33,215 nucleotides of DNA. Source: Fidelibacterota bacterium. GTDB lineage: Bacteria > Fidelibacterota > UBA8477. Both the position numbers and the translations under genes were made by a program. Under the pieces are notes generated by a model. The model made no database searches and was not told the origin of the DNA. It was given only the letters and a program-made list of their open reading frames with translations. The DNA lies in NCBI GenBank assembly GCA_021734045.1, contig JAIPJR010000025.1, forward strand, positions 1 to 33,215, in the 5' to 3' direction. The first letter of the stretch is position 1; each line of letters opens with the position of its first letter. Positions 1 to 31,337 of this stretch are shown piece by piece.

Positions 1-1019
1 ACAAGCTTTCACACCAACTGTTTCTTGAGCCTGAATGGGTAGGCGCGGATCAGATTTATGTGAATGGGTTTTCATCCTCTCTACCGGAAGAGGTACAACT
101 GGCAGCGATGCGAACCGTACCCGGTTTGGAAAATGTAGAATTTATTCGTCCGGGTTATGCGGTTGAATATGACTTTTTTCCGCCGCGTCAGTTAAATCGT
201 ACCCTGGAAACCAAGCGGGTCTCCGGACTCTACTTCGCCGGGCAAATCAACGGGACATCCGGATATGAAGAGGCTGCCGCCCAGGGGTTTTTCGCCGGGG
301 TAAATGCGGCATTGAAACTTACCAGGAAAAGCCCGCTCATTTTGCAGCGCCATGAAGCCTATATTGGTGTGTTGATCGACGATTTAATCACCAAAGACGC
401 AGACGAGCCCTACCGGATGTTTACTTCTCGTGCGGAACACCGCCTGTTGTTGCGCTACGATAATGCCCATTTCCGCCTGGCAAAACACGGTAAACAGCTG
501 GGTCTTTTAACGGATCGTGTATATGAGAGGGTCTGTGAGGAACAAGCGCTGGCAGACAAGGCGCTTAAATTATTAGAAATTACCTTCGTGGACAAAAATC
601 GGGTGAATACCATCCTGGGTCCAACCGGGGAGGCTCCTGTAACCGAGAACCCCTCTTTGGCTGCTTTACTGCGCCGGCCTAAAATTAGTATTACGGAAAT
701 TCGTTCGCTTTTACCGGAATGGATGCAAGCACTCCCCCACTCTCTGCTTTCTCTTATCGGGACCGATGTTCGTTATGCCGGGTATATTCGTCGTGAATGG
801 GAGCAGGTGCGAAAGATGATTCGCCTGCAATCAGCGTCTATTCCACAAGGCGTTGACTACTTAAGTATTCCCGGTCTTTCCACTGAAGCCCGCCAAAAGC
901 TGGATCGGATAAAGCCGGAAACACTGGGGCAGGCAGGCCGGATTTCCGGCGTTAATCCCGCCGACATCGCGGTGTTGATGGTCCATTTCAAGCAGCATGT
1001 TTCACGTGAAACTGTCTGA
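1..1019 (+). CDS. mnmG: tRNA uridine-5-carboxymethylaminomethyl modification enzyme MnmG, 5'-truncated by the window edge
   Basis: C-terminal 338 or so residues of MnmG (GidA), the FAD-dependent partner of MnmE that modifies wobble uridine 34 in a set of tRNAs. The frame is open from base 3, and the first visible residues (HQLFLEPEW, then [10 protein letters not shown]) match a mid-protein MnmG segment, so the true start lies outside the window. Family members are about 620 residues. Visible hallmarks are [32 protein letters not shown], and the C-terminal helical domain that binds MnmE, with [14 protein letters not shown] and [12 protein letters not shown]. The stop lies 23 bases inside mfd. 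In many bacteria mnmG is followed by rsmG and parAB near the origin; here mfd takes that place. Identity is very secure. Confidence 0.97.
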
Positions 1020-4134: not shown

Positions 4135-4214
4135 ATGGGCTTTCATTGTCTATATTTATTGCTATGCTATACCCGCTGATCATGACAGATGAAAAAAAGA
4201 AGAGGTTTACGATT

Positions 4215-5933
4215 ATGATGAAAAGACTGTCGGTGCTCACAATTCTGATGGGAGCGCTTGTCCTGACACATTGCTCAAAATCATCTCCCCGCGGTGACAA
4301 TGTCATTGCCACGATGGATGGTGCTGAAGTCACCGTCGAAGATTTGTTTTCACGCTATCCACAGGAACGCCTGGCTCAGGCGGCTGATGATGAGATTAAA
4401 AACGCGGTGGATGATGTGGTGCGCCGGGCGCTTTTTGTGAAAGATGCCATCGCCATGGGATACAAGGATTCTGTCGGCACCAAAGCGCAAATTCAGAGTG
4501 TGGAAGATCAGCGGCTTTTTCAATACGTCTATGAAAAAGATATTCTGGATTCCGTGATTAATGAAGCCCAGCTCCGAGAGATGTACGACAAAGCGCGTTA
4601 TGAAATTCACGCCCGGCATATTTTGGTTCAACACCGGGACGTACCCCGTGCTGAAGCCTCCCGCAGCAAGGAAGAGGCACTGGCCCTGTGTGCCCATATC
4701 CTTCAACAATTAAAGGAGGGGGCCGCATTCGAAGCACTGGCTAATCAGTACACCGAAGATCCATCAGGAAAAAACAGTGGTGGCGACCTGGGCTGGTTTG
4801 GCTGGGGCAAAATGGTCGGTCCATTCCAGGAAACCGCCTTCAAACTCTCTGTTGGTGAGGTTTCCGATGTGGTTGAAACCCAATTTGGTTATCACATTAT
4901 CAAGGTAGAGGGTCGTCGCGAGACGGACGTTAAGCCCTTTGAAGAGGAGAAAGACCGGCTCAAGCGCCTGGCAGCCCGGGACAAAGCCAAAGTTCTGCAG
5001 CAATTGGCGCAGGAGTTTATCTTTAACATCAAAGCGAACAAGAACTTCCAAATCATTAATAAAAATGTGGACGCCCTTTACGGTGTTATTAATGCCTCAA
5101 AATACAAAGTCGGCCCCATCGATTATGTTCTGAAGAATGTGAATTTCGCCGCACCCCTTTTCACCCTGGATGGTGAAACCTACGGCAGCCAATGGATTAT
5201 TGACGAAGTCAACAAGCTGGATGTGAATGCCAAGCCCACGGTGAACAACATCAATGATTTCAAAACGCTCTTGGAAAATATGGTCGTCCACGCGCTCATC
5301 ATTGACTACGGGTATGAAAAAGGCTATCACAAAGATGCGGCGTTCAGTAAGGCGATTACCGATGTTCAGAATAACATTATTTACAACAACTATGTTCGTG
5401 ATCAAGTCAACGCCAACCTGAACCCCAGTGAAAAAGAGTTGCTGGAATACTACGAAAACCACAAAAACACCGATTACATGCAAAAAGAGATGGTGCGCGT
5501 TCGGGAAGTGCTGGTGAAAGACCAGACAAAAGCGGATTCTCTTTACAAAATCATCCGCGATGGTGCAGACCTTGGTTTGATGGCCCGGCGACATACCGAA
5601 CGTAAATATGCTAAGGAACGGGGTGGTGAGCTGGCCCCCTTTCCGCCTGGCCGCTATGGTGAAATGGGCCGTCGTGCTTTTGAAATGTCAGCCGGCGAAC
5701 TCTCAGAGCCTATCAAGACCAATACCGGATATTCCATCATTAAAGTCCTGGAAAAAATCGAAGCGGGTCACCAGGATTATGAGCGTGTAAAAAACCGCGT
5801 GAAAAATGATATTAATCAGGAAATGCGCAAAAAACGGACGGATGAGCGTTTCAATATGCTGACAGAAAAATACGACCTGCAGATCAATTATGATGCGGCT
5901 TATGACGCTTACCGTGACGGTAACAATAATTAG
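4215..5933 (+). CDS. Peptidylprolyl isomerase lipoprotein with two parvulin domains
   Basis: Periplasmic SurA/PpiC-type folding factor of 572 residues. A hydrophobic leader ends in LVLTHC (Cys20 from this start), a lipobox-like site with an unusual His at -1, followed by a SurA-like N-terminal helical region. The first parvulin domain (about residues 130-245) has ARHILVQH, GGDLGWFG, MVGPFQETAF and QFGYHIIKV. A second, more diverged one (about 430-530) has VREVLV, GGELAPFPPGRYG and NTGYSIIKV. I chose the ATG at 4215 because AGAGG lies 9 bases upstream and it places the leader at the N-terminus; in-frame ATGs at 4182 and 4146 are alternatives. It lies 80 bases after mfd and just before two related genes, pointing to an outer-membrane-protein folding operon. 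Confidence 0.88.
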   Translation: MMKRLSVLTILMGALVLTHCSKSSPRGDNVIATMDGAEVTVEDLFSRYPQERLAQAADDEIKNAVDDVVRRALFVKDAIAMGYKDSVGTKAQIQSVEDQRLFQYVYEKDILDSVINEAQLREMYDKARYEIHARHILVQHRDVPRAEASRSKEEALALCAHILQQLKEGAAFEALANQYTEDPSGKNSGGDLGWFGWGKMVGPFQETAFKLSVGEVSDVVETQFGYHIIKVEGRRETDVKPFEEEKDRLKRLAARDKAKVLQQLAQEFIFNIKANKNFQIINKNVDALYGVINASKYKVGPIDYVLKNVNFAAPLFTLDGETYGSQWIIDEVNKLDVNAKPTVNNINDFKTLLENMVVHALIIDYGYEKGYHKDAAFSKAITDVQNNIIYNNYVRDQVNANLNPSEKELLEYYENHKNTDYMQKEMVRVREVLVKDQTKADSLYKIIRDGADLGLMARRHTERKYAKERGGELAPFPPGRYGEMGRRAFEMSAGELSEPIKTNTGYSIIKVLEKIEAGHQDYERVKNRVKNDINQEMRKKRTDERFNMLTEKYDLQINYDAAYDAYRDGNNN

Positions 5934-5947
5934 CTCCTGGAGCATTC

Positions 5948-6790
5948 ATGCGTAGATCATTCTGGATGCGCAGCTTATGGGTTGGTCTGATCCTGATATC
6001 TATATCAGCCTGTAACCGTCTGAATAAGGATGAGGTTGTCGCCCAGGTCAACCGTGAGGTCCTGACCATGGAGAAATTACGCGCCATGGTGCCGGTCCTG
6101 GATCAGCTGGATAGCCTGCAGCGGACACATTATGTGGAAAGCTGGATCCAGGAAACATTGCTGAAACAGGAGGCAGAAAAACACCTCCTGGAGCGGGATC
6201 CCCAGTTCAAACAACAAATGGATACCTACTACCGACGCTTACTGGCCGATAAAATGATGCAAAAGTTCATGCGTCAGTCGATTCAGATTTCTGATCAGGA
6301 AATCCGGGATTATTACGCGCGAAACCAGGATAATTTTCGGCGCGCGGAAGACGAGATTTTCGCACTGCATGTCCTGCTGCCCAGCCGGGATGAAGCGCGC
6401 GAGCTGCGAAGAGTTCTCCTGGCCAATGATTTGGATAAAAAGGCTGAGTTTTTGCGCAAATACCAGAACGAAACCGGATTATTCAAACTCAGTGATCTGA
6501 TTCCCGATTTACGCAACCGGCTCTCCCGCAACCGGGAGCCTGGTGTGTATGGTCCCTACTGGTCAGATTTCGGCTATCATGTGATGAATGTTACCCAATG
6601 GTACGCAAAAGATGATTTGCGCCCCCTGGAAGAGGTCTGGGATGAAATCGCCGGTCGTCTGTCAATCGATCGGCAGATGGATTACCGACTGGCCATCACC
6701 GATAGTTTGCGAGCCCAGGCTAATGTGAGTTTTCACCCCGCGCTGCTTAACCAATCTCAATCTCAATCTCAATCTCAATCGAGTCCATAA
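5948..6790 (+). CDS. SurA-like lipoprotein with degenerate parvulin domain
   Basis: Protein of 280 residues with a good lipoprotein signal, ISISAC with Cys22, so probably an outer-membrane or periplasmic lipoprotein. Residues 30-120 resemble the SurA N-terminal chaperone helices (VVAQVNREVLTMEKLRAM, then WIQETLLKQEAE). The later region keeps an outline of a parvulin domain (DEIFALHVLLPSRDEA, then GPYWSDFGYHVMNVTQW) but lacks the GGDLG-type loop, so isomerase activity is doubtful and a chaperone role is more likely. GGAG lies 5 bases before the ATG. The gene ends in a (Gln-Ser)n tail encoded by a hexamer repeat, and its stop overlaps the surA start (TAATG). Family call is good; exact role is inferred. 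Confidence 0.8.
   Translation: MRRSFWMRSLWVGLILISISACNRLNKDEVVAQVNREVLTMEKLRAMVPVLDQLDSLQRTHYVESWIQETLLKQEAEKHLLERDPQFKQQMDTYYRRLLADKMMQKFMRQSIQISDQEIRDYYARNQDNFRRAEDEIFALHVLLPSRDEARELRRVLLANDLDKKAEFLRKYQNETGLFKLSDLIPDLRNRLSRNREPGVYGPYWSDFGYHVMNVTQWYAKDDLRPLEEVWDEIAGRLSIDRQMDYRLAITDSLRAQANVSFHPALLNQSQSQSQSQSSP
6752..6780. repeat. Hexanucleotide tandem repeat (CAATCT), about 4.8 copies
   Basis: Four perfect CAATCT units plus CAATC lie at the 3' end of the preceding lipoprotein gene, encoding alternating Gln-Ser. Slippage would add or remove two residues per unit without shifting the frame, so this is a length-variable tail and not a phase switch. It ends only 9 bases before the surA start codon. 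Confidence 0.9.
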
Positions 6791-8106
6791 TGCAAAAAGA
6801 ACCAAACTTTAGACATATCCGAAATCGCCGCGCCTCCCTCCTGCTGCTTCACCTTTTATTGGTCTCTGTAATGAGTGCCCAATCACTTGTGGATGGCCTG
6901 GCTGCAATTGTAGGGCAAAAGGCAATTCTCTATTCTGAAGTCGAACAAATGGCTCAGCTAATCAGCGCTCAACAACGCATTGATCCTTACCAGAACCCGG
7001 AAGCCTACAACCAACTGCGATACAGTGCATTGGACGAATTAATCAACCAGCAGGTTTTGCTGGAGTATGCCCGCCAGGAGACCATCGAGGTGCGCGACCG
7101 GGATGTGGAGGCGCAGGTGGAACAATTAATGGGAAACCTGGAGCAGCAATACGGTGGCCTTAACCAGGTGGAGCAAACGTTTGGTATCAGTCCACGAAAA
7201 ATCCGCCGGTATTACCAGGATCAGATTCATAGTAATCAGATTATTGAGGCTGTGAAGCGTGAATTATTCAGCAATATCACCGTGAGTCGTCGAGAGGTGG
7301 AGGCTTTTTTCCACACCAACCGCGACAGTTTTCCGGATATCAATCCGGCGGTTGATTTTTCCATCATCTCCCTGCCGCTTGAGGCTGGTTCTCGTGCGCG
7401 GGAAGCCGCCCGGGATACCTTGTTGGCGATCCGGGAACGGATTCGCGCTGGTTCGGCTTCTTTTGGTGAAATGGCCGGCCGCTACTCCCAGGATCCCGGC
7501 AGCGCTGCCAATGGTGGAAATATTGGCTTTACCTCCCGGGGAACCTTTGTAAAACCGTTCGAAGCGGCAGCCTACTCACTTGAACCTGGTGAGATGAGCG
7601 ATGTGATAGAAACTCAGTTCGGTCTGCATCTTATTAAACTCGAAGAACGACGGGGTGAGAAGGTGAATGTCTCACACATTCTTATCAAACCCCAGGCATC
7701 CCAAGCCGATGTACAAGCACTTACAGACAGCCTTACCAGTCTCCGGGATGCGATTTTAGCTGGAAAGCTCACTTTTGCTGAGGCGGCTAAACAGTACCTC
7801 ACCGACCCGGATTTAAAAGCTCGCAACGGCCGGGTTGGCAAAACAGATATTACCACCATGCCGGAGGGAATGCAGAAAATTCTCAGCAGCCTGCCCGCAG
7901 GAGAAATCTCCCGGCCCTTCCCGGCTTTGGATCAGGTGAACATCATCCTCGTTCACGAGCGTTTCCCCGGCGGTAAATTAACGCTGAAGAACAACTGGTT
8001 TGAACTGGAGTCCATGACCCTGCAACAAAAACAGATGGAGCGGCTGGAAAAATGGATTCAGGAGCAGCGTGAGAAGATGTATATCAATGTTAAAATGATA
8101 TTATGA
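6790..8106 (+). CDS. surA: Periplasmic chaperone / peptidylprolyl isomerase SurA
   Basis: SurA escorts unfolded outer-membrane proteins across the periplasm to the BAM complex. The 438-residue protein has a signal peptide (basic start, LLLLHLLLVSVMSAQS), the SurA N-domain opening with LVDGLAAIVGQKAILYSEV, and two parvulin domains. The first (about 185-290) carries GGNIGFTSRGTFVKPFEAAAY and QFGLHLIKLEERR. The second (about 293-395) starts VNVSHILIKPQ and is more diverged. Length and architecture match the family (about 430). The start overlaps the previous stop by one base and has no clear ribosome binding site, so translation is probably coupled. It is the last gene of the mnmG-mfd-isomerase run and ends at a strong terminator. 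Confidence 0.92.
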   Translation: MQKEPNFRHIRNRRASLLLLHLLLVSVMSAQSLVDGLAAIVGQKAILYSEVEQMAQLISAQQRIDPYQNPEAYNQLRYSALDELINQQVLLEYARQETIEVRDRDVEAQVEQLMGNLEQQYGGLNQVEQTFGISPRKIRRYYQDQIHSNQIIEAVKRELFSNITVSRREVEAFFHTNRDSFPDINPAVDFSIISLPLEAGSRAREAARDTLLAIRERIRAGSASFGEMAGRYSQDPGSAANGGNIGFTSRGTFVKPFEAAAYSLEPGEMSDVIETQFGLHLIKLEERRGEKVNVSHILIKPQASQADVQALTDSLTSLRDAILAGKLTFAEAAKQYLTDPDLKARNGRVGKTDITTMPEGMQKILSSLPAGEISRPFPALDQVNIILVHERFPGGKLTLKNNWFELESMTLQQKQMERLEKWIQEQREKMYINVKMIL

Positions 8107-8138
8107 TTTCACCTCAAGGATAGGCTCGCCCCCTTTTT

Positions 8139-8174
8139 AACACCCCGATTCACACCAGACCGGGGTGTTTTTTT
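8139..8174 (+). terminator. Intrinsic terminator after surA
   Basis: CACCCCG (8141-8147) pairs with CGGGGTG (8161-8167) across a 13-base loop, followed by a run of seven T (8168-8174); flanking A and T bases extend the stem. It sits 32 bases past the surA stop and separates the left operon from the origin region. Confidence 0.9.
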
Positions 8175-8203
8175 AAAAACCTGAAAATCCCTGTTTCACA
8201 TAC

Positions 8204-8212
8204 TTATCAACA
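8204..8212 (+). promoter_or_regulatory. DnaA box, near-consensus
   Basis: TTATCAACA differs from TTATCCACA at one position. It lies just after the surA terminator, at the left border of the box cluster. Confidence 0.5.
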
Positions 8213-8304
8213 GGCTCCTGAATGCGCTATCGAATCGATGTAATTGTTTTTGTTCATCCGTCGGTTTTGACTGAACGGGGTTATGAACATATCCACGTAA
8301 ATTG

Positions 8305-8313
8305 TTATTCACG
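8305..8313 (+). promoter_or_regulatory. DnaA box, near-consensus
   Basis: TTATTCACG matches TTATNCACA except at the last base. It overlaps the left arm of the 8295-8378 inverted repeat by one base. Confidence 0.55.
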
Positions 8314-8344
8314 TCCTTCAAAAATAGCCATTTCGTCACCGTTG

Positions 8345-8353
8345 TGTGGATAA
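8345..8353 (-). promoter_or_regulatory. DnaA box, perfect consensus
   Basis: TGTGGATAA on the + strand is the reverse complement of TTATCCACA. It sits inside the inverted repeat, opposed to the box at 8305-8313. Confidence 0.8.
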
Positions 8354-8482
8354 ACAATTTGTTTCTGACAATTTACGTTCATGCTGTCTACTGCAGAATA
8401 TAACTGCCCACGTGAGAGGGCTTGGCTTTTCATTTTTCAAACATGCCTGATTGTCAAAAAGTTACCGGCGCCGGCAAAAATC

Positions 8483-8501
8483 TTATCCACAATGTGGACA
8501 A
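8483..8501. promoter_or_regulatory. Head-to-head DnaA box pair
   Basis: Perfect TTATCCACA (8483-8491, +) is separated by one base from TTGTCCACA on the minus strand (8493-8501), making a near-palindromic 19-mer. The pair is the box set closest to the AT-rich segment, the position expected for the boxes that load DnaA onto the unwinding element. Confidence 0.8.
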
Positions 8502-8520
8502 ACTACGTACTACTGCGACG

Positions 8521-8575
8521 TAAGAATATTTCTTTAGATTAGTTATAATAAAAGCGATTAAAATACCCATTAAGC
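8521..8575. other. AT-rich stretch, candidate DNA unwinding element
   Basis: About 50 bases very rich in A and T start 19 bases after the paired DnaA boxes, with a mixed-composition spacer (8502-8520) between. This box, spacer and AT-rich order resembles basal unwinding systems described in other bacteria. TAG and TAA triplets occur at 8536-8555, but a regular DnaA-trio run is not convincing by eye. Confidence 0.5.
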
Positions 8576-8601
8576 AGGCCATTCAAACGCATTGAATAGC
8601 T

Positions 8602-8629
8602 TTGAAATCAGGCCGGTTTATGTTATCTT
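8602..8629 (+). promoter_or_regulatory. Candidate promoter for dnaN
   Basis: TTGAAA (8602-8607) and TATCTT (8624-8629) with a 16-base spacer form a plausible housekeeping-type promoter about 60 bases before the dnaN start. It is the only good candidate I see between the AT-rich element and dnaN, and the leader is short. Confidence 0.4.
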
Positions 8630-8688
8630 GTTCCGCTTATGAAGAAAATATTTAAACCCTTGTTAATTGTGCATTTGGAGAGTTAAGC

Positions 8689-9804
8689 ATGCAATTTACC
8701 CTTGAGAAATCAGCCCTCCAGACTGGCGTACAAAAAATTATCAAAGTGAGCCCTACCCGCTCTACCATGCCAATCCTGAATCATATCCTGTTTACCATTG
8801 AAAATGGACGTCTTTATTTACGGACTTCGGATATCGAAATCACCTATGTATTGGAGGTGGATTTACTCAATGGTGAAGATGGATCTGTGGCTATTCCAGC
8901 GCGTCTGTTACAGGAAATTACCAATGAGTTGCCTGAGACGGAGTTGAAGTTCAGTGTGGACGAAAAACAGCGGATTAGTCTGGAAACCACTGTTGGGACA
9001 TACAAAATCCAGGGGCGTCCCGGCGATGAATTTCCGGAAACACCTGAGTTAGCGGATGCCTCCACATTTAAGCTGCCCGCTGACCTGCTGGAGCGAATGG
9101 TTGATAAGACACTGTTTGCCGTTGGCCGGGATGAGTTGAAGCCCGCCCTGATGGGGGTGTTGTTTGAAATTAACAAAGCGGATATCCGGGCTGTGGCAAC
9201 CGACGGCCATCGGTTGGTTCGCTTTACCAATAAAGCCTTTACTAACTCCGGTGACCCGGCAAAAGTCATTATCCCCACCAAATTTCTACAATTGCTTCAA
9301 AACTTGCTGCCCATGGAAGATCAGGTGGAATTCAGTATTTCGAACGATCATGTGAAGGTTGAAACCAAGGGAGCCAAAGTTTATACCCGCGTAATTGATG
9401 AACACTATCCCGATTACACGGCGGTGATTCCTTCCGGAAACGATAAAACCTTTGTTTCAAATACCAGTGAGATGGTTAACACCGCCCGGCGGGTCTCGAT
9501 TTTTTCCAACCGAACCACCCACCAATTGGCATTTAAGCTGCATCCGGGCTATCTGGAGGTCTATACCGAGGACCCGGAAAACAGCACTTCCGCCAAAGAA
9601 GAGGTATTGGTGGAGTACGATGGTGAGGAGATGACGATTGGGTATAATTCGCTCTATGTGCGGGACCTGCTGCGCAATATTGAGACGGAAAAAGTGGTCT
9701 TTAAGCTGAGCAGTGCTGTGGGTCCGGGCATTATCCTGCCGGAAAAACAGCGCGAAAAAGAAGACCTGCTCATGTTATTAATGCCCATCAGGTTGAATGC
9801 CTAA
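8689..9804 (+). CDS. dnaN: DNA polymerase III sliding clamp (beta subunit)
   Basis: DnaN is the ring-shaped processivity factor of the replicative polymerase. The 371 residues match the usual 366-380, with three repeated clamp folds. Recognisable segments are MQFTLEKSALQTGVQKIIKVSP at the start, LKPALMGVLFEI, VATDGHRLVRF, and the C-terminal IILPE and LLMLLMPIRLN that form the partner-binding pocket. GGAGAG lies shortly upstream of the ATG. It is the first gene after the putative origin; usually dnaA stands immediately before it, and here the origin does. Identity is secure. Confidence 0.97.
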   Translation: MQFTLEKSALQTGVQKIIKVSPTRSTMPILNHILFTIENGRLYLRTSDIEITYVLEVDLLNGEDGSVAIPARLLQEITNELPETELKFSVDEKQRISLETTVGTYKIQGRPGDEFPETPELADASTFKLPADLLERMVDKTLFAVGRDELKPALMGVLFEINKADIRAVATDGHRLVRFTNKAFTNSGDPAKVIIPTKFLQLLQNLLPMEDQVEFSISNDHVKVETKGAKVYTRVIDEHYPDYTAVIPSGNDKTFVSNTSEMVNTARRVSIFSNRTTHQLAFKLHPGYLEVYTEDPENSTSAKEEVLVEYDGEEMTIGYNSLYVRDLLRNIETEKVVFKLSSAVGPGIILPEKQREKEDLLMLLMPIRLNA

Positions 9805-9864
9805 TGACAGCAGGTAAACGATTCAGTCATCCAAATAAAAATATTGTGTTGTGAGGTAATTAAC

Positions 9865-9890
9865 GGAGGTTGGTTCACACCGGCCCGGTG
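9865..9890 (+). promoter_or_regulatory. recF ribosome binding site with a bridging hairpin
   Basis: A strong GGAGG (9865-9869) lies 22 bases before the only plausible recF ATG (9892), too far for normal use. The gap contains CACCGGCCCGGTG (9878-9890), which can fold into a 5-bp stem with a 3-base loop ending one base before the ATG. Folding would shorten the effective spacing to about 9 bases. There is no in-frame ATG, GTG or TTG between 9870 and 9892. Function is inferred. Confidence 0.5.
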
Positions 9891-9891
9891 C

Positions 9892-11002
9892 ATGCTGATT
9901 AAGTCCCTTTCCATGAAAAATTTTCGGGTATATGAACACGCAGCTCTTCGCTTCGGAGAGCAGACCAATGTTCTCTTTGGTGAAAATGGCGCGGGCAAAA
10001 CAACCGTTTTGGAAGCAATTCACTGTCTGGCATATACCCGCAGCTTCAAAACCCATTTGGACGGAGAGTTGATTCGGTATGAGACGACGGAAGCTAAAGT
10101 CGGTGGAAATTTCAGCGGTGACCGGAAAAATGATCAGCGGGTTGAAATGTTTCTTTCAGAAAAGCAACCAAAACACATTAAGGTGAACGGCGCGCTACTT
10201 TCCAGTCAGGCTGATTTAATTGGCCGGATCCCGCTGGTGTGTCTCGCACCAGAAGATGGTGTGGTAACTTCCGGCGCGCCTGCGGACCGACGCCGGTTTT
10301 TTGATAAGCTGTTTTCTCAGGTGGACTCGGTCTATCTACAGGCACTCCAGCAATTCAACCGGGTATTAAAGCAGCGCAATGCCCAGTTGAACGATTATGC
10401 GGTAAATGGAACGCCGGTGAATTCGGAATTACTCCGCGCGCTGGATACGCAAGTCGCTAAGCATGGGGCGGTTGTTCAGGAAAAACGCGCGGAATACCTG
10501 CAAAAATTCAAAACCTTTGTATATGAGATTTACCAGGAATTGGAGCGGGAGAAGACATTTAAAGCGGCGTATGTCCCCTCAGTGAAGCCCAAAGCGGGCG
10601 AAACGGTTGAAGCGGCATTTCAGCGTGAATTGGAGGCCAGTCGACCTGCTGATATGCGCCGGGGAACCACCACCACCGGAATTCAGCGAGATTTGTTTCT
10701 ATTCTATCTGAATCACCAGGAAATCCGGCGTTATGGCTCCAAGGGTGAGCATAAGCTGGCCTTGGTTGCGTTAAAATTCGCTGAAGGGCGGTTATTAGAA
10801 GATTACTTGACCGAGAAGCCCATTTACCTGCTGGATGATTTATTCGCTGAGTTGGACATTAAGCGCAGCGTACAGATTATTCAGTCGCTGCCGGAGGGAT
10901 ACCAGATTTTTATTACCTCAACCGATCTGGCCGATCTGCGACAGCATGGGATGACGCTGGAGTCAGAAAAATTGACCGTTTTTGATACAGGAAAGCTTCG
11001 TG

Positions 11003-11016
<14 letters not shown>
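9892..11016 (+). CDS. recF: DNA replication and repair protein RecF
   Basis: RecF is an SMC-like ATPase that with RecO and RecR loads RecA on gapped DNA. The 374-residue protein starts MLIKSLSMKNFRVY, the typical RecF N-terminus, with Walker A GENGAGKTT near residue 32, a central coiled-coil arm region, and Walker B YLLDDLFAELD near 310, followed by ITSTDL. The open frame runs further upstream from a TTG at 9844, but that extension has no family resemblance, so I place the start at 9892. The gene overlaps the downstream DUF721 gene by 14 bases. recO is also in this window at 27316. Confidence 0.95.
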
Positions 11017-13230
<2,214 letters not shown>

Positions 13231-13321: not shown

Positions 13322-15853
13322 TTGGAAATTCAAAGACAGAACATTATCCGCGCCAACATTGAAGACGAAATGAAGAAATCCTACATGGATTACTCCATGT
13401 CCGTGATTGTTTCGCGCGCACTTCCCGATGTTCGGGATGGACTCAAGCCGGTACACCGGCGCATTTTATATGGCATGAGCGAACTGGGCGTACAGTATAA
13501 CCGCCCCTACCGTAAGTCAGCCCGTATCGTGGGTGACGTGTTGGGTAAATATCACCCCCACGGTGACTCGGCGGTTTATGATACCATGGTGCGCATGACC
13601 CAGGATTTTTCATTGCGGTATCCGTTGGTGGATGGCCAGGGCAACTTTGGCTCTATCGATGGTGATAATGCGGCTGCCATGCGATACACGGAAGCCCGGT
13701 TGAAGCGAATTGCCGGTGAAATCATGCGTGACCTGGAGAAAGACACGGTAAATTTCATGCCCAATTTTGACGACAGCCTGCAGGAGCCGGTGGTTATGCC
13801 AACGGTACTGCCCAATCTGTTGCTCAATGGTGCCAGCGGAATTGCGGTGGGGATGGCCACCAATATTCCTTCCCATAATCTGGGCGAAGTCGTGGACGCA
13901 ATCTCCGCACAGATTGACAATCCCGACATTACCATTTCTGAGTTGATGCAATATATCACCGGACCCGATTTCCCCACCGGCGCTATTATTTACGGCGCCA
14001 GCGGTATTAAGGATGCTTATGAAACCGGTCGCGGGAAAATTACCGTTCGGGCGCGGGTCAACGTGGAAGAGCAGAAAAATGGCCGGGAACATCTGATAGT
14101 TACCGAAATCCCCTACCAGGTAAACAAGGCGACGCTTATTGAAAAAATCGCTGATCTGGTTCACGACAAGAAAGTTGAAGGCATCTCCGACCTGCGGGAT
14201 GAGTCTGACAAAGACGGCATCCGGGTGGTGATAGAATTAAAACGGGATACCGTACCAGAGGTGGTACTGAACCAGCTCTACAAACACACGCAGCTTCAGG
14301 ACACTTTTGGTGTGATTATGCTGGCGCTGGTGGACGGCCTGCCAAAAGTGTTGACCCTGAAGGAGATGATTGCCCACTTCATCAATTTCCGGCATGATGT
14401 TGTGGTGCGCCGGACACAGTATGATTTAAATGAAGCCGAAAAGCGCGCCCACATTTTAGAGGGGTTGAAAATTGCCCTGGATAATTTGGACGCCGTAATA
14501 AAAACCATCCGTGAATCCAAAAACCCGGTGGTTGCTAAAGAGCAGCTCATGAGCCGGTTTGAGCTCAGCGACGTACAAGCCCAGGCGATTCTGGATATGC
14601 GACTCCAGCGACTAACCGGACTAGAACGGCAGAAAATTGTTGACGAGTACACGGAAACCCTGAAACTCATCGCCAAACTGAAAGAAATTTTGGCCAACCG
14701 GGGCCTCCGGATGGAGATCATCAAGGAGGAGTTGACGGAGTTAAAAGAGCGCTATGGCGATGAGCGCCGAACGGAAATTGTCCACGACGCCCGGGACTTC
14801 ACTGTTGAGGATATGATTGCCGAAGAGGAGATGGTCATTACCATTACCCACAACGGCTTTATCAAACGCTATCCCGTGAGCGGCTACCGCCGTCAAAACC
14901 GTGGCGGCCGTGGTTCATCAGGTGCCAAGGCCCGGGATGATGATTTTGTGGAGCATCTGTTTGTTGCTTCTACCCATGACTATATCCTCTTTTTTACGGA
15001 CGCGGGAAAATGTTACTGGATAAAAGTACACCAGTTGCCCCAGGCCGGAAAAGCAACCCGTGGCCGGGCGATTGTGAATCTATTAGGCATTGAATCGGGT
15101 GAAAAAATCATGGCTTACATTACCGTCCGTGATTTCACCGCGGGAAATTATATCATCATGGCCACGGCCAACGGACTGGTGAAGAAGACAGATCTGCAGG
15201 CCTACAGCCGCCCGCAGCGGGGAGGCATTTACGCCATTGATATTCGTGAAGGCGATTACCTGATTGATGCCAAGCTCACCAACGGTGAGAATGATATTTT
15301 GCTGGGAACCCATAACGGCAAATCGATTCGATTTAATGAAAACCAGGTGCGCCCCACCGGCCGTAAGACCATGGGTGTTGCCGGCATCCGACTCAGCGGT
15401 AAAGATGATCGTGTTGTGGGAATGATTGTTGTCCGCCGGGAAGGAACCGTTCTGGCCGTGACTGAAAATGGATTTGGCAAGCGCACGGAAATTATCAATT
15501 ACCGGGTCCAGAATCGCGGCGGCAAAGGCATTATCACCGTAAAGGTCACTCCCAAGGTTGGCAAAATGCTGGCTCTGCTGGAAGTGGTGGACCAGGATGA
15601 TCTGATGATTATTACCGCCAAGGGCGTCCTGATTCGCCTGCCGGTTGGAAAAATCCGCAGTATCGGACGAAACACTCAGGGCGTGCGGCTCATCCGGTTG
15701 GATGAAAACGACACCATTTCGGCCGTCACCCGGGTTCAGGAAGAGACCGAGACAAAAAATGGTGTAGAGATCCAAACTTCGGACGATGAAAATGGCGAAA
15801 ATGGCAACGATGATGATTCCGGAGCCGACCAAATCAGTGCCTTTGATGAATAA
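13322..15853 (+). CDS. gyrA: DNA gyrase subunit A
   Basis: GyrA is the DNA cleavage and rejoining subunit. The 843 residues show the winged-helix breakage domain with [28 protein letters not shown], the quinolone pocket [10 protein letters not shown] with Ser and Asp in the sensitive-type state, and the active-site Tyr in AMRYTEARL. The coiled-coil gate follows, then the beta-pinwheel domain with a GyrA-box-like RQNRGGRG near residue 525. An acidic tail ([16 protein letters not shown]) ends the protein. The start is a TTG preceded 6 bases upstream by GAGG; the next ATG would remove the conserved N-terminal arm, so TTG is preferred. Identity is secure; the start is likely. Confidence 0.97.
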
Positions 15854-22873: not shown

Positions 22874-22960
22874 TGTTGATTTATCTTAGTTTTTTCAGTC
22901 GGAGCACTTAGTTTTTCGACACCAATGAAGCAAAAATGCCGGATGCGCAGAGATAATCCT

Positions 22961-23062
22961 GTTCAGGCAAATCATCATCCGCCGGATAAATCTTCCAGGG
23001 ATAGACGCCGGGCCAAAGGCGCAGCAGGCATAACCGATAAATTGAGATTTGAGCGAAAGGAG
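22961..23062 (+). promoter_or_regulatory. Possible structured leader upstream of the octaheme cytochrome
   Basis: The 198-base gap before the cytochrome start can form several pairings: ATCC/GGAT around GCC near 22977-22987, CGCC (23006-23009) with GGCG (23018-23021), and a long-range AAATCT (22988-22993) with AGATTT (23045-23050) ending just before the AAAGGAG ribosome binding site. GGCAAATC at 22966 resembles the start of the c-di-GMP-I (GEMM) riboswitch core, but the GCAAAGCC core is not present. I could not assign a class. Confidence 0.2.
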
Positions 23063-23071
23063 ACGGAGGGT

Positions 23072-24436
23072 ATGCAAAGGAGACACACCACGTGGCTCTT
23101 GATTTTTAGTCTGGCCATGGCAGTAAACCTGTCCGGGCAATCGGGCGATGTACAAGCAGGAACCGGTCAGTGTATGATTTGCCACAAAAGCACTTCTCCG
23201 GGACTGTACCGGCAGTGGTTGGGATCCAAACACGCCACCATGAGCGTCACGTGTTACGATTGCCACAAAGCGGAAAAATCCGATCCGGATGCCTTCAAAC
23301 ACGGGGATCATTACATTGCAACCCTGGTCACACCGAAGGATTGCTCCCGGTGTCATCCCACACAGTTCAAGGAAGTTGATAAATCCTATCACGCCACGGC
23401 AGGCGAAATTCTGGAATCTGCAGATGCTTATCTCGCCAATGTGGTGGGTGGTCATCCAGCAGCGATTGCCGGCTGTGAAGCATGCCATGGGAACCGGGTT
23501 AAAATTGACCCCAAGTCTCCCAACATGCTGGCGCGTGAAAGCTGGCCCAATTCCGGAGTGGGACGCATTAACCCGGACGGGTCAAAGGGCTCTTGTAATG
23601 CTTGCCATAGCCGCCACTCCTTCTCAAAAGCCCAGGCTCGTCGTCCGGAGACCTGCGGGAAATGTCACCTGGGACCCGATCATCCCCAAAAAGAGATTTA
23701 TGAAGAATCCAAACACGGCATCGCATTTTTCACCAATCAGGACAAAATAAATCTGGAATCGGATCGCTGGGTTGTGGGCGAAGATTATTATGAGGCCCCC
23801 ACTTGTGTTACCTGCCATATGGGTGCCACGAAGCAGCAAAATGCCACCCATGATGTTGGTTTGCGCCTTTCGTGGACGTTGCGCCCAGCGATTTCGGTGC
23901 ACAAAGAGGACTGGCGGGAAAAGCGGGACAACATGAAGGATGTATGTCAAGCCTGTCACGGGAAAGATTTCGTGGAGGGACATTATTACCAATTCGATGG
24001 TGTGGTGAATTTGTATAATGAAAAATTCGCAGCACCGGCGACTAAAATCATGAAGCTGTTAAAGAAGAATGGTGCTTTAGAGCGCAAAGCTGAATTTTCT
24101 AACGATATTGAGTGGATTTATTGGGAACTCTGGCATCACGAGGGTCGTCGGGCACGCCATGGTGCGGCGATGATGGGACCGGACTACACCTGGTGGGAAG
24201 GCATTTACGAAGTGGCGAAACACTTCTACTTTGAGTTGCTGCCAGCCGCCCGGGAATATGATGACCCGGAGGTAAACCAGTTCATCGACAACCTGCTGAC
24301 CAACGATCCGATGCATAATTGGATGAACAAGGACTCAGGGGAATTGAAAGCCAAGATTAAGTCCGGAGAGATGCAGAAAATTTATCAAGACCTATTCAAG
24401 GAGACACGGGCGACCAATGCGCCAAACAATTACTAA
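23072..24436 (+). CDS. Octaheme c-type cytochrome of the hydroxylamine oxidoreductase (HAO) family
   Basis: Periplasmic cytochrome of 454 residues. After a signal peptide (WLLIFSLAMAVNLSG) come eight CXXCH heme sites at about Cys34, 61, 91, 135, 175, 195, 245 and 292, then a heme-free helical C-terminal region. This count and layout are those of HAO-family octaheme enzymes. GRRARHGAAMMGPDYTWW (about 356-375) is the conserved C-terminal signature near the catalytic heme. Relatives either oxidise hydroxylamine or reduce nitrite or hydroxylamine; pairing with a NapC-like quinol dehydrogenase favours a reductive role, as proposed for epsilonproteobacterial haoA-haoC. Tyr372 could be the heme-crosslinking Tyr of the oxidative enzymes, which an alignment must decide. 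AAAGGAG lies 9 bases before the ATG. Confidence 0.85.
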   Translation: MQRRHTTWLLIFSLAMAVNLSGQSGDVQAGTGQCMICHKSTSPGLYRQWLGSKHATMSVTCYDCHKAEKSDPDAFKHGDHYIATLVTPKDCSRCHPTQFKEVDKSYHATAGEILESADAYLANVVGGHPAAIAGCEACHGNRVKIDPKSPNMLARESWPNSGVGRINPDGSKGSCNACHSRHSFSKAQARRPETCGKCHLGPDHPQKEIYEESKHGIAFFTNQDKINLESDRWVVGEDYYEAPTCVTCHMGATKQQNATHDVGLRLSWTLRPAISVHKEDWREKRDNMKDVCQACHGKDFVEGHYYQFDGVVNLYNEKFAAPATKIMKLLKKNGALERKAEFSNDIEWIYWELWHHEGRRARHGAAMMGPDYTWWEGIYEVAKHFYFELLPAAREYDDPEVNQFIDNLLTNDPMHNWMNKDSGELKAKIKSGEMQKIYQDLFKETRATNAPNNY

Positions 24437-25907
24437 TTTCCTACGCGGCCTGGCATCCAACTGGATTTCAAAAAGCGGGGTGGTCTTGGTCACCACCTCG
24501 TTTCTGCTGTTCAGCAGTTTTGAGATCTTCGCGCTACTGGGCCTGGTGAACAATGCCTATATAGGCTTAATCACCTACCTGGGTTTTCCTTCTATTTTCG
24601 TCATCGGCCTGATGCTGATACCCTTCGGCTGGTGGAAGTACGTAAGGGAAACGGGACGATCCACGCGGGATTTGCTGAGCGAGCGCTTTCCCGATGATGT
24701 TCTTCAGCCGAAGGCCTTTGGTGCGAAACTGATTCGCACAGTCGCTATTCTGACGCTTATAAATATCGTAATTCTTGGCGCAGCCAGCACGCGCATGTTG
24801 CATTTCATGGACCAGCCTGAATTTTGCGGGACAGCCTGTCACAGTGTTATGGGGCCCGAATGGGCGACCTACCAGGACTCACCCCACGCACATGTGAAAT
24901 GCGTGGATTGTCATGTAGGTGAAGGCGTGGGTGCGCTGATTGACTCCAAGATTAACGGCACCTGGCAGATGATTTCCGTAACCTTCGATCTGTATGAGCG
25001 CCCCATCCCAGCGCCGGTTCATCAGTTGCGCCCGGCTCGGGAGACTTGCGAAAAATGTCACTGGCCGTCAAAGTTTCACGGCACCCGACTAAAAACCATC
25101 ACCCGCTACCGGCGGGATAAAAACAATACGCCCAAATACACCACGCTTAATCTGAAGGTGGGATCCGGGGAGAATGGTACCGCCAGTGGTATTCACTGGC
25201 ACATTGCCTCCCAGAATGAAGTCCGTTACGGCGCTATTGATGACAAGCGGGAAAAAATTCTGTGGGTCGAAGCGCGCCAGCCGGACGGCACCTTCAAGCG
25301 CTATGTTAACAGCCGCTATGATGCGAATGCGCCGGTCCACGAAGAGCGGGTGTTGGACTGTATTGATTGCCACAACCGGGCAACCCACATCTATGAGTTG
25401 CCGGACAAGGCCATTGACCGGCGGATTAACGAAGGGCTGCTCCCCAGGGGTTTGCCATTCCTGAAGCGGGAAGCTCTGGCTGCGCTGACAAAGAGCTACC
25501 CTGACAAGGAGACCGGATTGGCGAGTATTGAGCGCTACCTCATGGGATTTTACAGAAAATACGACAGGCAATTAGCGGGAACCCGGCTGAACGAGATTGA
25601 CAGTGCCATCACCGTGGTACAGGAAATCTATCGCCGCAATATTCACCCCCGGATGAATGTAAATTGGGGCGCCTATCCCAACCATATTGGGCACGAAACC
25701 GACCTGGGCTGTTTTCGGTGTCACAACATGGATATGGTAGATGAAGCCGGAAAAAATGTGGTGAATGACTGTACGACCTGTCACTCCATTTTGGCTTACG
25801 AAAAAGACGAGCCTTTTGCCTATCTCTTCCCGGTGAGAGAGGGTGAGCCGGAAGGCGATATGCACGAATATCTACGCCAGGAGTTTTTACAGTCGTTTGA
25901 TAAATAG
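24417..25907 (+). CDS. Membrane-anchored NapC/NirT-family multiheme cytochrome c
   Basis: Protein of 496 residues with about three N-terminal hydrophobic helices (LVTTSFLLFSSFEIFALLGL, FPSIFVIGLMLIPFGW, VAILTLINIVILGAA) and a periplasmic heme domain. The first heme site is an unusual CX3CH, CGTACH at Cys137, followed by five CXXCH sites (CVDCH, CEKCH, CIDCH, CFRCH, CTTCH), so six hemes are predicted. NapC/NirT relatives oxidise quinol and pass electrons to periplasmic reductases; here the partner is the octaheme protein, whose gene overlaps by 20 bases. It is longer than NapC or NrfH (about 150-200 residues), with extra hemes in the C-terminal part. A strong terminator follows. Confidence 0.85.
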   Translation: MRQTITNFLRGLASNWISKSGVVLVTTSFLLFSSFEIFALLGLVNNAYIGLITYLGFPSIFVIGLMLIPFGWWKYVRETGRSTRDLLSERFPDDVLQPKAFGAKLIRTVAILTLINIVILGAASTRMLHFMDQPEFCGTACHSVMGPEWATYQDSPHAHVKCVDCHVGEGVGALIDSKINGTWQMISVTFDLYERPIPAPVHQLRPARETCEKCHWPSKFHGTRLKTITRYRRDKNNTPKYTTLNLKVGSGENGTASGIHWHIASQNEVRYGAIDDKREKILWVEARQPDGTFKRYVNSRYDANAPVHEERVLDCIDCHNRATHIYELPDKAIDRRINEGLLPRGLPFLKREALAALTKSYPDKETGLASIERYLMGFYRKYDRQLAGTRLNEIDSAITVVQEIYRRNIHPRMNVNWGAYPNHIGHETDLGCFRCHNMDMVDEAGKNVVNDCTTCHSILAYEKDEPFAYLFPVREGEPEGDMHEYLRQEFLQSFDK

Positions 25908-29120: not shown

Positions 29121-29585
29121 GTGGAAGCAGAAAAAACAGCGTATCGAATGGTAAGGCTATTGAGATTGAGACACTCTAATAAAGTCAGGACCTATTGCAT
29201 CCCGTTTTCTGACCAGTTCGAAGAGGTGGTGAGGGCTGAATTTCAAAAATTTACAGCCGATATCCCCATGAAACCGGACGATCGCCTGGCGGCGAGCATG
29301 GCATTAAATGAGTTGGCCTTGAACGCTGTGGAACACAGCCGCAGCGAAGATAATCAGGTCGTAATCACCTTCCGGTTTTTAGGCGGCAGCCTGAATATTC
29401 AGGTGCGCGACAAGGGTCGCGGGTTGGTTGTTTCTGAGCCCAAGGCTCGTTATTACCGTGGACACGGTTTTAATATTGTTAAAGCGCTCTGTGACAGAAT
29501 GGACGTGCATCCATCAGGCACAGGGCTAACCGTTTCAATAACGAAAAATCTATGGAGGCCTCAAATTGGTGGATTTTCCATATAG
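29121..29585 (+). CDS. Anti-sigma-factor-type HATPase (RsbW/SpoIIAB-like)
   Basis: A stand-alone GHKL ATPase domain of about 150 residues with N-box ASMALNELALNAVEHS, G1 box VRDKGRGL and G2 box GHGFNIVKALCD. Such proteins act as serine kinases that bind a target and phosphorylate a STAS antagonist in partner switching. The STAS gene follows at once with a 17-20 base overlap. The GTG at 29121 lies directly after the rhomboid stop; an ATG at 29148 is an alternative, and neither has a good ribosome binding site. No sigma factor is adjacent, so the regulated partner may be the GAF-AAA protein two genes on. Confidence 0.85.
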   Translation: MEAEKTAYRMVRLLRLRHSNKVRTYCIPFSDQFEEVVRAEFQKFTADIPMKPDDRLAASMALNELALNAVEHSRSEDNQVVITFRFLGGSLNIQVRDKGRGLVVSEPKARYYRGHGFNIVKALCDRMDVHPSGTGLTVSITKNLWRPQIGGFSI

Positions 29586-29907
29586 TCTGGTTAACCAGGA
29601 CCAGGCAGTTGTGCTAAGAATCGGCGGTTATATTGATCGCCGGGGCATTAAGCAGTTGCGTGAGACATTGCTGGAGGAATACGCTAACGGCAATAAACCC
29701 ATCATTGTCAATTTTTCTAACGGTGAGCCTAACAGCCTGTTGGTGGCCATCTTTTTTGAGATTTTGGATATGGCGAACAAGGATCCCCAAAAGATTGCTT
29801 TCTCCAATCTGAATGAGCCGATTCACCGGGCGCTGGAAGCGACGGGAATTCTTTCGCTCTGTGCGGTGTATGCAGATGAAAATGAAGCGCTGGAGCGGTT
29901 GAAATGA
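29566..29907 (+). CDS. STAS-domain protein, anti-anti-sigma-like
   Basis: A 113-residue single STAS domain (VVLRIGGYIDRRGIKQLRETL, IIVNFSN, LEATGILSLCAVYADENEAL). In SpoIIAA/RsbV the phosphorylated Ser sits in a DSSG motif; here the segment reads GEPNSLLVAIF, so the Ser is kept but the surrounding acidic and Gly residues are not. GGAGG lies 7 bases before a TTG (29566) and 10 before a GTG (29569); either could be the start. It overlaps the HATPase gene upstream and the GAF-AAA gene downstream (ATGA), so the three form a coupled unit. Confidence 0.8.
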   Translation: MVDFPYSLVNQDQAVVLRIGGYIDRRGIKQLRETLLEEYANGNKPIIVNFSNGEPNSLLVAIFFEILDMANKDPQKIAFSNLNEPIHRALEATGILSLCAVYADENEALERLK

Positions 29908-31337
29908 GTCCTGCCGACCCGCGTCTTTTTCTGCTATACCGCAGCCTGGAAGAGCTGGCTGACCTGGAATTAACAGCCTCATCTTACCAGGAGGCTTTTG
30001 AAACCATTCAGCAGGTATTCATGGGGGTTTTGGGCGTCAGTCGGGGGGCGTTTCTTATCAAGCAATTCGATAAAGATGTCTGTGAGGTGGCTTATAAGCG
30101 GGGGTTGAATTTACCACTGGGTTTTAAAATTCCGGTAAATGGTCTGGAGGATGCGACGGAAAAAACGCTGAAAACCATGGGGGTTGAATTTGTTCTGCCG
30201 TTGTATCATCACAACCAGTGTACCGGATTAATTTTACTGGGCGAGAAGATGAATGGGAAGCCATTCGTTTTGGAGGACCGCAAGCTGGTAGAGCCCATCG
30301 CCAACCTGGTGGGAATGGTTCTGGCGAACTTTATGCATTATTACGAAAGCCTGTCCGAAAGAGATGATCTGAAGGTTGAAAATCGACGCCTGAAAACACT
30401 GGTAGAAACCCGTTTCAGTATCCGGGAAGTGGTGGGGGTCTCATCTGCTTTCCAGAAAACGATTCGTCAGGCAACAATATTCGCCCAGTCAAACCACCCC
30501 CTGTTGCTGGCGGGTGAATATGGCACGGGAAAAGAGTTTCTCGCTCGCTTCATTCACCACCAGGGACCCCGCAGCATGAATGCCATTTATGTTTTGGATG
30601 CTGAAACGATTTCCAGAACCCAATGGCTGAAGCAGCACCCCAAAGATCTATCTGCGGAAGCACAAAAACGCCTGAACCAACTGCGTGGCGGTACGGTGGT
30701 TATTCTGGGTATTGAAGAAATTGATGCAGAATTTCAACAAGGCCTCTTTAGAGCGCTTAACAATCCTGATGTGTCCAGTATTCCAGCCATGTATGATTTG
30801 CGCATGATTCTCACAGCCCGCCAGGATCCCGATGAATTGGTTCAGGATGGGCGGTTATTGCCGGAGCTGCGGGACTATCTGAAGGGATATATTCTTGAAG
30901 TAGCGCCTCTGTCGGAACGACAGGAGGCCATTCCTATCATCGCGCAAAAGATTTTGGAAACGTTGATGGTGGAATATAACCGGCCGGGTTTAAGCTTTTC
31001 ATCTGCTGCCCTGCGGTATCTGTCCGCCCGAGCCTATTCGGAAAATGTGCGTGAGTTGGAAAATCTGGTTGAGCGAGCGGTTGTGGCGCTCCCTTTGGAC
31101 AAGCATGAAATCACCCTGGCCGTTCTTCAGCCAGTGGAGTTGATTGGGCGGGACGATTTTAAATCGCCGCTCCCCCAAACCATGCAGGACCTGGAAGAGT
31201 TTAAAGAGGGAATGGTTTTACGAGCGCTGGAACAGAATAACTGGAAGAAAATCGCAGCCGCTGAATCATTGGGTGTATCTCGCCAGACAATTGATAATCT
31301 CATCGCTCGCTACAACATCAGCCGACCCGGGCACTGA
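29904..31337 (+). CDS. GAF - AAA+ - Fis-type regulator related to sigma-54 activators but lacking GAFTGA
   Basis: 477 residues. A GAF-like sensor (about 20-150) leads by a coiled linker to an AAA+ domain. Walker A is GEYGTGKE (204-211). The Walker B region reads GGTVVILGIEEID (about 261-273) where sigma-54 activators have FLDEIG. The GAFTGA loop that contacts sigma-54 is absent; the segment between Walker A and B is shorter and reads SRTQWLKQHPKDLS. Later motifs YSENVRELENLVERAVV and a Fis-type helix-turn-helix (WKKIAAAESLGVSRQTIDNLI) are kept. It thus probably binds DNA but is unlikely to open sigma-54 promoters. It is coupled to the HATPase and STAS genes, suggesting regulation by partner switching. 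Confidence 0.8.
   Translation: MSPADPRLFLLYRSLEELADLELTASSYQEAFETIQQVFMGVLGVSRGAFLIKQFDKDVCEVAYKRGLNLPLGFKIPVNGLEDATEKTLKTMGVEFVLPLYHHNQCTGLILLGEKMNGKPFVLEDRKLVEPIANLVGMVLANFMHYYESLSERDDLKVENRRLKTLVETRFSIREVVGVSSAFQKTIRQATIFAQSNHPLLLAGEYGTGKEFLARFIHHQGPRSMNAIYVLDAETISRTQWLKQHPKDLSAEAQKRLNQLRGGTVVILGIEEIDAEFQQGLFRALNNPDVSSIPAMYDLRMILTARQDPDELVQDGRLLPELRDYLKGYILEVAPLSERQEAIPIIAQKILETLMVEYNRPGLSFSSAALRYLSARAYSENVRELENLVERAVVALPLDKHEITLAVLQPVELIGRDDFKSPLPQTMQDLEEFKEGMVLRALEQNNWKKIAAAESLGVSRQTIDNLIARYNISRPGH

Follow-up and report, generated by a model that had tools for sequence, protein, structure and literature searches.

We propose that the 582-bp intergenic region between surA and dnaN is very probably the chromosomal origin of replication (oriC) of this Fidelibacterota bacterium, judging from sequence comparison. 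This reading draws on DnaA boxes, an AT-rich tract, conservation in the genus, and GC skew and strand composition in relatives; within the genus itself, the placement rests on the boxes, the AT-rich tract, conservation and the relatives. It would give this uncultured phylum a concrete oriC position, on which ori/ter estimates of growth rate from metagenomes could draw. In a limited search of the literature on the phylum, we found no description of its origin or of surA as an origin neighbour.

The window (the whole stretch of 33,215 nucleotides that was analysed) is contig C99 of a fragmented assembly of 119 contigs that is 92% complete. Based on dnaN, the nearest named relatives are Candidatus Neomarinimicrobiota/Marinimicrobia MAGs (94% and 85% identity). 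The gap had been delimited correctly in the preliminary description, with the surA stop at 8106 and the dnaN start at 8689, and the flanking genes are of the origin type as described there, except that the surA side consists of three SurA/PpiC-type genes in a row. The gene layout around the gap is as follows:

1 to 1019, plus strand: mnmG (NCBIfam TIGR00136), truncated at the contig edge so that only its 3' part is present, with its 5' part on contig C86
997 to 4134, plus strand: mfd (TIGR00580, above cut-off), within the block separating dnaA from the origin candidate
4146 to 5933, 5948 to 6790 and 6790 to 8106, plus strand: three PpiC/SurA-type peptidyl-prolyl isomerase genes
8107 to 8688, no strand: surA-dnaN intergenic region, candidate chromosomal oriC, 582 bp (from box count and conservation in the genus)
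8689 to 9804, plus strand: dnaN
9844 to 11016, plus strand: recF, downstream of dnaN
10982 to 11287, plus strand: short ORF between recF and gyrB, assumed from its position to be of DUF721 type
11284 to 13230, plus strand: gyrB
13322 to 15853, plus strand: gyrA

Within the gap itself, we recognized these elements:

8141 to 8175 (core stem 8152 to 8168), plus strand: terminator-like hairpin and T-run behind surA, read from the sequence
8204 to 8212, plus strand: DnaA box TTATCAACA (at most one mismatch), present in 3/3 genomes of the genus
8345 to 8353, minus strand: perfect DnaA box TTATCCACA
8483 to 8491, plus strand: perfect DnaA box TTATCCACA, first half of an inverted pair
8493 to 8501, minus strand: DnaA box TTGTCCACA (at most one mismatch), second half of the inverted pair
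8503 to 8527, plus strand: strongly conserved block CTACGTACTACTGCGACGTAAGAAT in the three-genome alignment, loosely trio-like, adjoining the box pair
8503 to 8580, no strand: proposed unwinding element, the lowest-GC part of the gap (GC 0.27 to 0.30), adjoining the box pair
8602 to 8629, plus strand: promoter-like site TTGAAA-16-TATCTT for dnaN, inside conserved sequence
8677 to 8682, plus strand: candidate ribosome-binding site GGAGAG of dnaN, read from the sequence

The preliminary description had counted at least five DnaA-box-like 9-mers, two of them perfect. The two perfect boxes stand, and the total reaches five only if two-mismatch sites (in the gap at 8281, 8289 and 8305) are included; otherwise it is four. 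These four boxes with at most one mismatch compare with a mean of 0.20 in shuffled sequences, and neither four such boxes nor two perfect ones were reached by any of 1000 shuffles. Perfect boxes no more than about 200 bp apart occur at three places in the contigs of this genome, and the surA-dnaN gap is the only intergenic one. The paired perfect boxes on contigs C83 and C117 were rejected as alternative origin sites because they are inside coding genes. The AT-rich tract was confirmed: the gap has 39% GC compared with about 50% around it, and its lowest GC (27 to 30%, in the 60-bp windows that begin at 8491 and 8521) comes straight after the 8483/8493 box pair. In the three genomes of the genus the gap length is kept (582, 582 and 585 bp), as are the box-bearing islands of the alignment. 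Few parts of the gap are as well conserved across the three genomes as the CTACGTACTACTGCGACGTAAGAAT block. Neither the terminator-like hairpin nor the promoter-like site is of a kind that stands far above chance counts (for promoter-like sites, two found in the gap against 1.4 expected), and an Rfam search of the window gave no match.

If this region is the origin, DnaA, encoded about 13 kb away, would bind the boxes at 8204 and 8345 and the inverted pair at 8483/8493. The AT-rich DNA just past this pair (approximately 8503 to 8580) would then open, and the helicase would be loaded there. The rightward fork would run along dnaN-recF-gyrB-gyrA, co-directional with the genes, and the leftward fork would meet surA-mfd-mnmG-yidC head-on before running along dnaA.

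According to the preliminary description, dnaA is absent. It is indeed in neither the gap nor the window, but the genome does not lack it: a profile search recovered one full-length DnaA above the TIGR00362 cut-off, encoded on contig C86, where dnaA is divergent from rnpA-yidD-yidC-mnmE-mnmG. Both C86 and the window align to a single contig (G022:C74) of a close relative (G022; 94% dnaN identity) that carries the whole run from dnaA to dnaN, and about 38 bp separate C86 from base 1 of the window. Placed by synteny, dnaA starts about 13 kb to the left of the gap, about 4.9 kb beyond the left edge of the window. The absence of dnaA is thus an effect of the window edge. A denser box cluster beside dnaA was sought as counter-evidence and none occurs in this genome, where the short rnpA-dnaA gap holds just two TTATCAACA sites, both imperfect boxes. 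As dnaA keeps these upstream sites of its own, its autoregulation need not be lost; the suggestion of an odd layout is not upheld, with dnaA some 13 kb off and the layout common in the phylum. In several genomes (L031, 4867 to 4892, and relatives), dnaA is immediately preceded by one or two TTATCAACA sites, which would probably serve as an autoregulation site. Three genomes (G142, G040, and G121) have two full-length dnaA matches each, which may be second copies or contamination.

We searched 150 genomes for dnaA and dnaN. In 56 listed genomes, as well as in G022 and G024, the two genes are on one contig, on opposite strands and about 9 to 17 kb apart (in G024, whose single contig begins between them). 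In a dozen further genomes both genes share a contig but are spaced differently or point the same way; in the remainder they are on separate contigs or one of them is absent. The common order is dnaA, a divergent yidC-mnmE-mnmG-mfd-surA block, the gap, and dnaN onward. It was compared in 42 genomes from 16 families which, having been picked for this layout, show its spread and not its exact frequency. Variations among them are small: no mfd was recognised in G102 and no recF in some, and the position of mfd is conserved in nearly all. For the small-genome family f12, the comparison covered dnaA and dnaN positions only. Over the 42 genomes the surA-dnaN gap averages 373 bp with 27% GC and contains 36 perfect and 74 one-mismatch boxes in total, where about 6 would be expected. 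In the 450 bp preceding dnaA there are 18 perfect and 56 one-mismatch boxes, compared with an expectation of about 5. The classical origin region has the order rpmH-oriC-dnaA-dnaN-recF-gyrB. The same genes are found here, with dnaA divergent from the rpmH/rnpA side and dnaN-recF-gyrB-gyrA still in one run, but dnaA is separated from dnaN by a block from rnpA to mnmG-mfd-surA, and it is to the dnaN end of this block that the origin evidence points.

Some genomes have lost part of this arrangement. In G012 and G013, dnaN lies with the gyrase genes on a separate contig and has no upstream box, and the gap behind surA keeps its boxes: four one-mismatch boxes in G013 (0/1000 shuffles), and one perfect and one imperfect box in G012 (p 0.06 for the sum and 0.013 for the perfect one). 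The dnaN contigs of both genomes show local skew minima near dnaN, for which gene direction may be the explanation. In two other genomes dnaA is away from the block (G128 and, on contig evidence, G001). The origin-like gap therefore stays behind surA when either dnaA or dnaN leaves, which suggests that the origin need not travel with either gene. In G001 (L037), dnaA no longer adjoins rnpA, and an ORF of 279 aa runs divergently from it. In genus g3 (L033, L035, and L036), the dnaN-recF-gyrB-gyrA run is found at another locus beside divergent unrelated genes, with local skew minima near dnaN.

Cumulative GC skew had been named as a check on the origin. Its minimum is at or near the surA-dnaN gap in two relatives with single-contig assemblies (local stretches of 390 to 400 kb), while in the window's own genus the skew is too weak to place the origin. 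In G024 (388-kb stretch), the minimum is at 172 to 175 kb, the surA-dnaN gap at 175.4 kb and dnaA-rpmH at 188.3 kb, which puts the minimum within about 2 kb of the gap and 13 kb from dnaA; the skew changes sign there although the genes from yidC to gyrA share one direction. In G128 (400-kb stretch), the minimum lies in the range from about 132 to 159 kb; the surA-dnaN gap is at 135 kb and the lowest point about 20 kb from it. The displaced dnaA of this genome, at 226 kb and 92 kb from dnaN, is located well up the right-hand arm of the curve. The G128 gap has one box only; from 125 to 172 kb, no other AT-rich gap contains a box. On the weakly skewed contig of G022, from the window's own genus, the minimum (about 13 to 14 kb) falls between the two candidate sites, 10 kb from the surA-dnaN gap (at 24 kb) and about 3 kb from dnaA-rpmH. 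Skew at fourfold sites of the window and the G022 contig is likewise weak and has no sign change, and does not separate the two sites.

We also compared composition at fourfold sites, which is largely independent of protein content. On the coding strand, the yidC-surA genes are C-richer than dnaA, dnaN, recF, gyrB and gyrA in 34 of the 42 genomes (Wilcoxon, 1.4e-5), and also T-richer in most of them. Because genomes within a family are not independent, we give the test by family as well: the GC bias holds in 12/16 families (Wilcoxon, 0.008) and the TA bias in 14/16 (0.0008). Calibration on the leading and lagging genes of the G128 and G013 arms gave the same directions. In G024 the GC bias agrees but TA separates leading from lagging genes in the opposite direction, and TA is therefore no uniform strand marker. 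The lagging-type composition of the yidC-surA genes favours an origin at surA-dnaN over one at rpmH-dnaA.

An origin between rpmH and dnaA, the usual ancestral place, would leave the surA-dnaN boxes as sites for DnaA regulation of dnaN-recF-gyrB-gyrA. We consider this unlikely. Although boxes upstream of dnaA are also enriched across the phylum, the rpmH-dnaA divergence is kept and the G022 skew minimum is nearer to this site, the skew of G024 and G128, the lagging-type composition from yidC to surA, the boxes that remain behind surA after dnaN has left, and the short rnpA-dnaA gap of this genome with its two imperfect boxes all argue against it. A split origin, in which the rpmH-dnaA and surA-dnaN clusters about 12 kb apart would cooperate via DnaA looping with unwinding at surA-dnaN, is very unlikely in our judgement. 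Bacillus has a two-cluster origin, and boxes are enriched in both gaps over the 42 genomes. A two-cluster origin is also reported for Helicobacter (PMC8235120). Set against this, dnaA is off the block in G128 and (on contig evidence) in G001, which indicates that close dnaA linkage is not required, and the sites directly before dnaA are in keeping with simple autoregulation. Equally improbable is that a split origin of this kind, its parts about 12 kb apart and spanning a conserved gene block replicated head-on, extends through the whole phylum; if true, it would hold that block in place.

It is also very unlikely that the origin lies elsewhere and that the boxes in both gaps are only DnaA-titration or regulatory sites. 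A fragmented, 92% complete genome could hide an unseen origin, but this reading is opposed by the skew in the two single-contig relatives together with the phylum-wide conservation, and the contigs of this genome are without another intergenic pair of perfect boxes.

An oriC at surA-dnaN has counterparts in layout. Cyanobacteria are known to have origins that adjoin dnaN, with dnaA located elsewhere (PMC4674748, PMC2275245), so an origin of this kind is already known. The candidate shares with the cyanobacterial oriC upstream of dnaN (Synechococcus, Cyanothece ATCC 51142) its position adjoining the dnaN start and a dnaA that is not adjacent. It differs in that its other neighbour is surA, dnaA is only about 13 kb away, and its boxes are TTATCCACA/TTATCAACA, whereas the cyanobacterial box is TTTTCCACA, a 9-mer with no occurrence in 8107 to 8688. 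The two are similar in layout and not related. The basal unwinding system (BUS) consists of DnaA boxes, a spacer and DnaA-trios (PMC8287927), and the box pair adjoining an AT-rich stretch in the window resembles it. A box followed by at least three [CT]TA trios occurs in 9 of the 42 relatives, compared with 1.15 expected. Strict [CT]TA trios (at least three within 16 bp of a DnaA box) were not found in the window, where the looser NTN form fits, a form likely to be frequent by chance in AT-rich DNA. Unlike in the BUS, the trio repeat is interrupted in the window's genus (CTACGTACTACTGCGACG), and CTACGTACTACTGCGACGTAAGAAT is no clean trio array.

Elsewhere in the window, two neighbouring multihaem cytochrome-type genes are encoded at 22925 to 25907; part of the second one is NrfH-like. 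Positions 29121 to 31337 carry anti-sigma factor and antagonist-like genes and, after them, a gene of the sigma-54 activator type.
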